This document shows, piece by piece, positions 29,750 through 46,435 of a stretch of DNA of 64,000 nt. The notes under the pieces were generated by a model that worked only from the letters and a program-made list of their open reading frames with translations, was not told where the DNA came from and did not search any database. Source of the DNA: Terriglobia bacterium (GTDB lineage Bacteria; Acidobacteriota; Terriglobia; Terriglobales; Acidobacteriaceae); contig JAJPHW010000024.1 of NCBI GenBank assembly GCA_021325035.1, positions 1-64,000 of the forward strand, written 5' to 3'. How positions within the stretch are numbered: the first letter of the stretch is position 1; the number at the start of each line of letters is the position of its first letter. The translations under genes and the position numbers were made by a program.

Positions 29750-30049
29750 GACCTTGGTACCTCATTTCTTATCGAGCTGATATGAGTGCCGGCCCGGTAA
29801 ACCAGCTCCCCCCTGGAACCTCTTACCGATATTTTTCAAATTCCTAACCGGCACTCGCAATTAGAAGTTCTCATAATCGGGAAGGAGTTGCTGTGCCGTG
29901 CATCACTGGCGCAGGTGACCCCAGGTACCGGGAAGGTCAAAGAATCAAAACGGCTTTCCTGCTTGCTGCGAAGCACAAAAAAAAATACTTGGTTATTTTC
30001 GGAAAGTTTTCCGCCTTGCTCCACAGGCCCAAGATGCGCGAAGATGCAA

Positions 30050-30091
30050 GCGGGTGCCCCATTCTTTCGCGTTCTTTGCGAAAGGGTGGGA
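30050..30091 (+). repeat. REP-like hairpin element, copy D
   Basis: GCGGGTGCCCCATT-CTTTCGC-GTTCTTT-GCGAAAG-GGTGGG; same layout as the elements at 33.5, 34.2, 34.4 and 46.3 kb. Confidence 0.7.
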
Positions 30092-30101
30092 AACATATCT
30101 C

Positions 30102-30857
30102 GTGTCCACAAACTTCAAGCTCGCCCCGGAAAAGCCGCTGTCTCCGGCTGCCGCAAAAATGCGGCTGCTTAAAACGTTGCGCTGCACGTTGAAATTTGAA
30201 AAGCAAGCATGGCAGTCCGGTGCACAACTGGTTGCAGGTGTGGACGAAGTCGGCCGCGGTTCACTCTTCGGCCCTGTCGTCGCCGCTGCGGTCATTCTCG
30301 ATCGGTCGTATCGCATTCGAGGACTGCGCGACTCCAAACTTCTTCCCCGCGAGCGCCGCGAAATTCTCGCCGCGCGAATTCGTGAACATTCCATCGCCAT
30401 CGCCATCGCTTCCGTTGACGCCGCCCGCATTGACGAGATCAACATCTATCAAGCTTCGCGCGTGGCCATGCATCAAGCCGTCGTCCAATTGCAACCCGCA
30501 GCCGATCATCTTTTAATTGACGCGATGCGCCTCGACTGTGATATCGCGCAGCAGGCAATCATTCACGGAGACGCGCTTTCCGCTTCGATTGCCGCCGCTT
30601 CCATCATCGCCAAAGTCGAGCGCGACCGCATGATGACCGAACTCGACTCTACATATCCCGCCTACGGACTCGTCTCCAACAAAGGCTACAGCACGCCCTT
30701 TCACCTCGCTGCCCTGCGAGAGCACGGCCCCTGCCCGCTTCACCGCCAGTCGTTCGCACCGGTGTGGCAGAATCCCACCCCGCAGGAAGTGCTGGAGTTT
30801 ATGCAATCTAACGACTCCGCTGAAACGCTACATGCATTGCGAGAGCCAGCAATTTAG
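30102..30857 (+). CDS. rnhB: Ribonuclease HII (start uncertain: 30102 or 30159; the upstream ORF overlaps a REP-like element)
   Basis: VAGVDEVGRGSLFGPVVAAAVIL, DSKLL, ASIIAKVERDRMM, YPAYGLVSNKGYST. Confidence 0.93.
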   Translation: MSTNFKLAPEKPLSPAAAKMRLLKTLRCTLKFEKQAWQSGAQLVAGVDEVGRGSLFGPVVAAAVILDRSYRIRGLRDSKLLPRERREILAARIREHSIAIAIASVDAARIDEINIYQASRVAMHQAVVQLQPAADHLLIDAMRLDCDIAQQAIIHGDALSASIAAASIIAKVERDRMMTELDSTYPAYGLVSNKGYSTPFHLAALREHGPCPLHRQSFAPVWQNPTPQEVLEFMQSNDSAETLHALREPAI

Positions 30858-33268: not shown

Positions 33269-33337
33269 AATGTTCCTTGCGGAACATTGATGAAAAATCG
33301 CGCTAGTGTTCCTGAAGGAACATTCCCAAAATGGGAA
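33269..33337. repeat. Three consecutive short perfect hairpins
   Basis: AATGTTCC-TTGC-GGAACATT (33269-33288), TGTTCC-TGAA-GGAACA (33307-33322), TTCCCA-AAA-TGGGAA (33323-33337). Confidence 0.8.
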
Positions 33338-33479: not shown

Positions 33480-33570
33480 GGGCGGGTGGCCCATCCTTTC
33501 GCCTCGGTTTTTCTTTCCCATTATGAAACTGTGGGTGCCCCGTCCTTGCGTTTTGTGCAAGGGCGGGTAC
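33480..33570 (+). repeat. Compound REP-like element, copy A (left flank of RAYT)
   Basis: GGCGGGTGGCCCAT...CGGTTTTTC... plus GTGGGTGCCCCGTCCTTGCGTTTTGTGCAAGGGCGGGTAC. Confidence 0.85.
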
Positions 33571-33595
33571 GATGCTGCGGATATCATGGTTTGTC

Positions 33596-34182
33596 ATGCC
33601 TGCCGGCCTGCATCGCATCTACGGCGCTCATCACCTGCACTTTATCACCAACTCGTGTTACCGACGGCTGCCGTTCCTCGCTTCGGCTCGAGCGCGCAAC
33701 CGATTCCTCTCCATCCTCCAGCCTGAGACGAAGCCAAAGAGACGCGGTTAAAGTACCGCTTCGTGGTCGTGGGCTACGTCGTCATGCCCGAACACATTCT
33801 TCTTTTGCTCAGCGCGCCGGAAGTGGGCAGCCTTTCGACGGCCATGCAAGTGCTCAAACAGCGCACGGCCCGTGCCCTTCTGCCCAAACGACCGCGCCAC
33901 AATGCCGGACAACGCCAGCTCTTTGGCGATCCGCCGCGCCGGGCATTCTGGCAAGCCCGCTTCTACGAATTCAATGTGTGGAGTGAGAAAAAGCGGGTCG
34001 AGAAGCTGAATTACATGCATGGCAATCCGGTGAAGCGCGCGCTCGTCGAGTCTCCCGAGCAGTTGCGATGGAGCAGTTATCGCCACTACTTTCTGGGCGA
34101 AGCTGGGCGAGTGCGGGTGAATGTTGGATGGGGAGAGATTTCTTTCGCGACCGCGCGGCCTGAAACATCAAACCCTCGCTGA
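33596..34182 (+). pseudogene. REP-associated tyrosine transposase (RAYT, Y1_Tnp), frameshifted with altered HUH motif
   Basis: Frame 2 MPAGLHRIYGAHHLHFITNSCYRRLPFL... stops at 33751; continues in frame 1 as LKYRFVVVGYVVMPEHILLLLSAPE...KLNYMHGNPVKRALVESPEQLRWSSYRHY; expected HxH reads HIL. Confidence 0.85.
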
Positions 34183-34193
34183 CAGCGGTCGTG

Positions 34194-34279
34194 GTACCCG
34201 CCCTTGCACAAAACGCAAGGACGGGGCACCCACGGTCGTAATGATTTCGACTATTCAAAGGCCGGGCCACCCGCCCACC
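34194..34279 (-). repeat. Compound REP-like element, copy B (inverted, right flank of RAYT)
   Basis: 34194-34233 is the exact reverse complement of 33531-33570 (40/40 by eye); second half GCCGGGCCACCCGCCC. Confidence 0.88.
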
Positions 34280-34320
34280 GGGGCTGCATAAATCAGCGGT
34301 GCCTAAAAGGAGAACGGCAG

Positions 34321-34412
34321 GCGGGTGGCCCATGCTTTTTCACCCGGTTTTTCCTGTCTATTAAGAGTGTGAGGGTGCCCCATCCTTGCGTGCTTTTCGC
34401 AAAGGTGGGAGG
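34321..34412 (+). repeat. Compound REP-like element, copy C
   Basis: GCGGGTGGCCCATGCTTTTTCACCCGGTTTTTC...GAGGGTGCCCCATCCTTGCGTGCTTTTCGCAAAGGTGGGAG, colinear with copy A. Confidence 0.8.
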
Positions 34413-36541: not shown

Positions 36542-37231
36542 ATGCTGAAAAGTTGCGGCATCATGTTGCAGAAATTCCTCACACTCGTAATTTTGGTGAG
36601 CATCGTTCTGCTTACCATGCTGGCCGGTTGGGGCTTGGCTGCTCTGCCTGCGTTTTTCAGCAATCCCGCGCGCACGGGATTGGTCGCCGTGATGATTTTT
36701 GCGGCGCTGTGTGCATTCTTATTGGATATTGATCTCAATCCTTTTCGCAAAGGCCATTCCGCGCTCGGCCAACAATCATGGGTGTTGCTCGCGCTGACTT
36801 TGGCGTCATTATTCTTGATGTGGTTTCTCCCCTACGCAGACCGCCGCCAGATTTGCACGTTTGGAGACAGTTTCATTTTGCGCTGGCTCGGGCTCTCACT
36901 TTGCGCTGCCGGAATCGCGGTTCGACTGCTTGCACTGGCGAAGCTCGGAAAGCAATTCAGCGCCTACGTCACTTTGCAGGATGGGCACGAACTGGTGCAG
37001 TCAGGAATTTACGGCGTGATTCGGCACCCGCTATATCTCAGCTTGTTGCTGATGGGGCCGGGGTTTGCACTCGTATTCCGCAGCGAACTGACTGTGCCAA
37101 TTCTGCTGGCCGCAGTCGCCTTCGTGAGCGTGCGTATTCGTCAGGAAGAAAAATTGCTGGAGTCGCAATTTGCTGCGTCATTCGCCCGGTATCGCGCGCG
37201 GACTTGGATGTTGGTTCCGATGATTCTTTAA
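36542..37231 (+). CDS. Isoprenylcysteine carboxyl methyltransferase (ICMT/PEMT-like) family protein
   Basis: LVQSGIYGVIRHPLYLSLLLMGPGFAL...RIRQEEKLLESQF...FARYRARTWMLVPMIL. Confidence 0.85.
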   Translation: MLKSCGIMLQKFLTLVILVSIVLLTMLAGWGLAALPAFFSNPARTGLVAVMIFAALCAFLLDIDLNPFRKGHSALGQQSWVLLALTLASLFLMWFLPYADRRQICTFGDSFILRWLGLSLCAAGIAVRLLALAKLGKQFSAYVTLQDGHELVQSGIYGVIRHPLYLSLLLMGPGFALVFRSELTVPILLAAVAFVSVRIRQEEKLLESQFAASFARYRARTWMLVPMIL

Positions 37232-37337
37232 TCGATGATTCTTTAATCGATGATTCTTTAATCGATGATTCTTTAATCGATGATTCTTTAATCGATGATT
37301 CTTTAATCGATGATTCTTTAATCGATGATTCTTAAAT
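37218..37337. repeat. 8 x 15-bp tandem repeat (CGATGATTCTTTAAT)
   Basis: Seven identical units plus a terminal variant CGATGATTCTTAAAT; the ICMT stop codon lies in unit 1. Confidence 0.97.
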
Positions 37338-37344
37338 CAGTGGG

Positions 37345-46247: not shown

Positions 46248-46318
46248 GGTTGTCTAAGTTATAGATCGGCGCGTGGCCCACAGAAGCTCCGCCCTTTGCC
46301 CGGGATCTGCTCCACCGA

Positions 46319-46358
46319 AGGGTGGCCCATTCTTGCGCGTTCTTTGCGCAAGAGGGGG
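46319..46358 (+). repeat. REP-like hairpin element, copy E
   Basis: GGGTGGCCCATT-CTTGCGC-GTTCTTT-GCGCAAG-AGGGGGA. Confidence 0.75.
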
Positions 46359-46435
46359 AACCACGGGATTCTCTGCCAAACCTCTCCGCAAAAGTCTTTC
46401 CACTCAAACCAAAAAACGGCTTGAAGGGCCACCAA

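Follow-up and report, generated by a model that had tools for sequence, protein, structure and literature searches.

The region 33481-34275 of the window, by which we mean the whole 64,000-nucleotide stretch of Terriglobia bacterium DNA analyzed here, is probably a dead member of a group of small transposable Y1/HUH (RAYT) units that occur in soil Acidobacteriota and have bipartite REP ends and miniature derivatives. The window corresponds to contig C91 of a 3.86-Mb genome in 232 contigs, which is 98% complete. Its unit was compared with about 20 close relatives, and nearly all compared sequences are MAGs.

Termini and ends of the RAYT unit

When 16 units from different genomes are aligned together with their flanks, homology extends from GGCGGGTGGCCC on the left to GGGCCACCCGCC on the right and the sequence outside is unrelated (Table 1). 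The unit is 770-807 bp long in most close relatives, a range that includes the window copy. From the outside inward, each end consists of an outer motif, a spacer, the tag GTGGGTGC and a hairpin. The spacers differ by side, the left one being pyrimidine-rich and the right one another sequence, and in units of the family the left hairpin reads CCCGTCCTTGCG...GCAAGGGCGGG and the right hairpin CCCGTCCTTCGCG...GCGAAGGGCGGG. In the window, the outer inverted pair matches over ~20 nt at 90%. Judged by these alignments, the outer 12-mers are the true termini of the RAYT unit. A search of Rfam gave no match.

A sequence-only reading of this DNA had framed the gene by an exact inverted pair of 40 nt, described as REP-like. 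The pair exists as quoted, the reverse complement is exact and the arms reach 43 nt at 98%; by chance, such an exact pair of 40 nt lying within 1 kb would be expected ~5e-17 times in 64 kb. As an element boundary, however, the 40-mer is ruled out because homology continues to the outer 12-mers. Nor is the 40-mer itself the dispersed repeat; it is related ends that are dispersed in the host genome, with 24 matches to a covariance model of the ends at E<=0.01. The two hairpins of a unit differ in most relatives, whose right ends read CCTTCGCG..GCGAAGG, whereas the right end of the window is of the left type. Thus, the perfect 40-nt repeat is secondary and stems from a right hairpin that turned left-type. 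Such homogenization of the inner hairpins affects 40 nt in the window and is also found in other units, over 35 nt in L086 and 84 nt in L077. In the latter (L144/L077, G006:C29), the 84-nt inverted repeat is near-perfect and reaches from the hairpin into the leader of the gene, a more extreme homogenization than in the window. The third copy in direct orientation, previously placed at 34321-34412, is real and begins one nucleotide earlier; it shares 77% identity with the left compound and scores ~61 bits with the model of ends.

Table 1. Coordinates of the RAYT unit, its parts and related ends in the window.
Feature	Position	Strand	Remarks
Whole degenerate RAYT unit, terminus to terminus	33481..34275	+	795 bp; edges are the homology limits between units at unrelated loci
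Left outer terminus (12-mer), GGCGGGTGGCCC	33481..33492	+	Kept in nearly all related left ends
Left inner REP-like hairpin with tag GTGGGTGC (the 40-mer)	33531..33570	+	Exact inverted pair; DNA fold of left end z = -3.0
RAYT 5' fragment	33572..33751	+	59 aa; ends at frame break, 17-bp insertion just before stop
RAYT 3' fragment	33748..34182	+	Y1_Tnp match; NF047646 RAYT 67.8 bits, partial; comparison with intact relatives
Right inner REP-like hairpin, left-type sequence	34194..34233	-	Exact reverse complement of the 40-mer 33531-33570
Right outer terminus (12-mer), GGGCCACCCGCC on the + strand	34264..34275	-	In relatives, flank conservation starts <= ~10 nt away
Solo left-type end, outer motif and inner hairpin	34320..34412	+	Model R1 61.3 bits, E 3.3e-10 in the window
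Additional end-like element, more diverged	46268..46361	+	Model R1 36.4 bits, E 1.9e-5

Identity and decay of the RAYT gene

Comparison with intact relatives bears out the earlier view that the DNA between the two ends holds a decayed RAYT gene split over two frames. The 3' fragment, which opens with LKYRFVVVGYVVMPEH... in another frame than the 5' fragment, matches Pfam Y1_Tnp at 23.6 bits (cut-off 23) and part of the RAYT model NF047646 at 67.8 bits, while intact relatives reach 99.5-100.2 bits with the latter model (cut-off 80). Intact units encode a RAYT of ~184 aa, and the intact relatives match E. coli TnpA-REP (4er8), which is their best structural relative by sequence. Most of them keep the HUH motif (MPEHIHLL or MPEHVHL) and the catalytic tyrosine (KLRYMHRNP). 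In the window, the HUH motif reads MPEHILLL (EHILL) with the second histidine lost near 33799-33801, and the catalytic tyrosine is retained at 34012-34014 (LNYMHGNP). The frame break coincides with the 17-bp insertion relative to the relatives; a point indel as the origin of the split frame was discarded, since the insertion fits instead. With an HUH residue lost and the frame broken, the window copy is, on the evidence of its sequence, dead.

Pairwise dN/dS among intact relatives ranges from 0.08 to 0.20, which indicates that the RAYT family is under purifying selection. The values between the window copy and intact copies (0.09-0.20) are not clearly raised and hence the decay is probably recent. 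In the protein tree, the window copy clusters with two Sulfotelmatobacter copies, and its nearest RAYT relatives come from MAGs labelled Candidatus Sulfotelmatobacter, Acidobacteriaceae or Terriglobia. These labels place the host in the Acidobacteriota, probably near Korobacteraceae/Acidobacteriaceae. A search of plasmids and phages for the RAYT returned nothing.

Copies, miniature elements and insertion sites

Besides the window copy, the host genome carries a second unit on contig C141 in which both ends are present and most of the gene is gone through an internal deletion. A third RAYT, on contig C51, comes from a separate lineage whose REP type differs, and a REP interrupts it; a fourth Y1 protein, on contig C50, is of another kind. 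The C51 gene (L007, G000:C51:21943-25239) is flanked by GGGTGCCCCATCCTTGTCGCG...GCGACAGGGTGGGG REPs, and a REP of the same type breaks it at ~1520-1565; this REP type is also found on C11, C40, C64, C93 and C165. The intact paralogue that had been suggested as a check is present in sister species, whereas the host MAG yielded no intact cognate RAYT, although its missing 2% may hold a copy. The solo ends of the host are therefore probably stranded. That the window gene is the former mobilizer of a REPIN-like family, as previously proposed, is reasonable given the dispersed related ends, but a RAYT simply stationary between REPs is not supported, as the whole block has fixed termini and is multi-copy at unrelated loci.

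Several genomes contain more than one unit, and some have two or three that are 85-95% identical and lie in unrelated flanks. MAG JABCZG has three units of 85-89% identity on different contigs, with unrelated flanks and a common outer terminus, which form one clade of mutual nearest relatives in the protein tree. The two units of MAG JANXZM are ~94% identical, cluster at 100/97 and are likewise mutual nearest relatives in that tree. Across one genus, DNA-level matches to the unit are patchy (17/45 species), and end matches found with the covariance model occur in 43/45 species, with up to 44 per genome.

Two further arrangements were seen. A full and a partial unit of 95% identity lie ~1.2 kb apart in direct orientation in one genome (L159/L167, G156:C92). 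Another RAYT unit adjoins an exonuclease III-like gene, the first ~50 nt of which are repeated on the far side of the unit. Two other species have a solo left end just upstream of this gene, and its neighbor differs from genome to genome (loci L146/L180, G145:C183, and L183, L184, L190, L191).

Many ends are arranged as inverted pairs 222-265 bp apart with their outer ends facing outward. These miniature elements of ~230 bp possess both unit termini in 15/15 extracted cases. Within genomes, the pairs L311/L312 (96.6% identity over 233 bp) and L320/L321 (96.1% over 229 bp) lose their identity exactly at the termini and are best explained as miniature transposons. Inspection of the miniature insertions by eye revealed no target duplications.

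In three cases a conserved gene forms the right flank, and unit-free relatives are conserved there from <= ~10 nt of the right terminus. At one of these sites, L081, 27 of the 28 relatives sharing the flanking gene lack an end-like element at the junction, and one has such an element. Four attempts to find a two-sided empty site in one 45-species genus failed, because the flank on the non-gene side is conserved in no relative searched. Whole-unit transposition is strongly suggested, short of proof. Locus L094 was considered as a case of a gene interrupted by the unit and discarded; its unit sits between two related genes. The site of a full unit in G121 carries a solo right end alone in G006 (L207, G006:C24, ~1511-1592) and nothing in most other relatives.

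The same sites bear on the possibility that homologous recombination or gene conversion between dispersed miniature elements or REPs carried the RAYT block into miniature elements already in place. The abundance of miniature elements and solo ends and the clear homogenization of inner hairpins in some units would be compatible with this. Yet we regard it as unlikely, given that almost all relatives are free of an end-like element at the L081 site and that near-identical miniature pairs themselves require insertion.

Proposed motif recognition and relation to known systems

Outer and inner motifs vary together among units. In L089, L091 and L092, which belong to one subgroup, the inner motif reads GGGTGCGCC, and all outer motifs found in them read GGGTGGGCC. 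The other readable units combine the inner motif GGGTGCCCC mostly with the outer motif GGGTGGCCC; L109 is an exception in having GGGTGCCCC at the right outer site. In distant subgroups, the hairpin stem varies and the GGGTGCCCC tag is largely kept, and GGGTGCCCC is the conserved part of the tag across units. The 5' GT[AG]G tag appears as GTGG in the window and most close relatives, but L086 and the JABCZG units lack it (AGGG, GGAGGG). Since the outer and inner motifs change together, the data from this single subgroup suggest that both motifs might be read by one protein or be paired with each other. The co-variation would also fit cleavage sites chosen by guide-sequence pairing, as in IS200/IS605.

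In the mechanism that we propose, an intact RAYT would recognize the tagged (GGGTGC) hairpins on single-stranded DNA and cut at the outer termini or beside them. Either the complete block or a miniature one sharing its ends would then be transferred to a new site, often just past the 3' end of a gene and without target duplication. For other TnpA-REP proteins, a guide role of GTAG and in vitro cleavage beside REPs are known (PMC8266576), which suggests the mechanism proposed here. We infer the single-strand mechanism, the cleavage at the outer termini and a past role of the window copy in moving the solo ends of its host.

The unit resembles the RAYT/TnpA-REP and REPtron systems (Nunvar 2010; Bertels & Rainey 2011; Quentin 2018; REP recognition study 2021) in its transposase family, in the position of the gene between inverted REP-like hairpins and in the dispersed solo or paired REPs. 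RAYTs have been described as single copy, apparently unable to move on their own and enslaved to the REPINs that they disperse (PMC3116915), and REPtrons as having one RAYT per REP type and no transposition of the whole unit (PMC6006769, PMC3116915). The window might hold a stationary REPtron whose domesticated RAYT mobilized REPs in trans, was itself immobile and then decayed. The family membership, the flanking inverted REPs, the dispersed solo ends and the cited literature speak for this explanation, but we consider it rather improbable. A single RAYT in an immobile unit does not match the two to three near-identical units per genome, with their unrelated flanks and sharp common termini, nor the patchy DNA-level presence within one genus. 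Furthermore, the unit described here differs from known RAYT systems in its extra outer termini and in its tag, which is GGGTGC(CCC) instead of GTAG, with GTGG in part of the family only.

An ordinary IS200/IS605 remnant with a chance inverted repeat is highly improbable: while it shares the Y1 transposase, the subterminal hairpins and a weak match to the IS200 model NF033573 (39.5 and 42.2 bits), the intact relatives remain under the cut-off of 55 of that model and over the RAYT cut-off, have the catalytic motif YMHRNP and not the Y---Q of TnpA-IS200 (PMC6006769), and carry REP-type tagged hairpins and inverted 12-nt termini conserved across species. The transposable RAYT unit nevertheless resembles IS200/IS605 elements (IS608) in the Y1/HUH chemistry expected, the asymmetric ends and the lack of a visible target duplication, and departs from them in its RAYT-type protein, inverted termini and REP tags, with no TnpB here.

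RAYT-like Acidobacteria genes flanked by TIRs have been termed 'TIRtrons', some of them members of repeat families (Di Nocera 2013, PMC3733652). The same paper describes one sharply defined TIRYT group from Acidobacteria and double inverted repeats for two Pseudomonas genes. The window unit likewise has a RAYT-like gene between terminal inverted repeats, here of 12 nt at both ends, and the TIRtrons of Acidobacteria are, from this description, a likely relative of its family. Compared by description, the two differ in that unit mobility, bipartite ends and miniature derivatives do not feature in the paper's account of TIRtrons. GGGGCACC departs at position 5 from the TIRtron motif GGGGWSAS. The gene-less paired inverted ends of ~230 bp, dispersed and, by their near-identical pairs, recently mobile, are reminiscent of REPINs and MITEs and are presumably moved in trans. 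Unlike these, the miniatures here keep both outer termini, differ in type between their left and right ends and have an autonomous partner with the same termini.

An IS200-like ancestor of REPINs and domesticated RAYTs has been proposed by Bertels & Rainey. We see about even chances that acidobacterial RAYTs are its living counterpart, that is, still-autonomous transposons with bipartite REP ends in which one protein reads both motifs and solo ends, miniature pairs and full units are successive stages of one family. If a RAYT lineage indeed moves as a block beside miniature and solo ends, the path from an IS200-like transposon to a domesticated REP mobilizer becomes directly testable by comparison and in vitro.

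Other repeats were noted in the window. Just upstream of the unit, the palindromes GTTCCTTGCGGAAC and GTTCCTGAAGGAAC are located at 33272-33285 and 33308-33321; unit L155 has a palindrome of this type (GTTCCTACAGGAAC) in its right flank, so that they are perhaps another repeat family. Eight near-perfect 15-bp repeats (CGATGATTCTTTAAT; DDSLI in one frame) occupy 37218-37338, right after a gene ending at 37231. The RNase HII-like ORF 30054-30857 overlaps at its start with a diverged REP-like hairpin (30022-30093), and thus its annotated N-terminus may be REP-derived.
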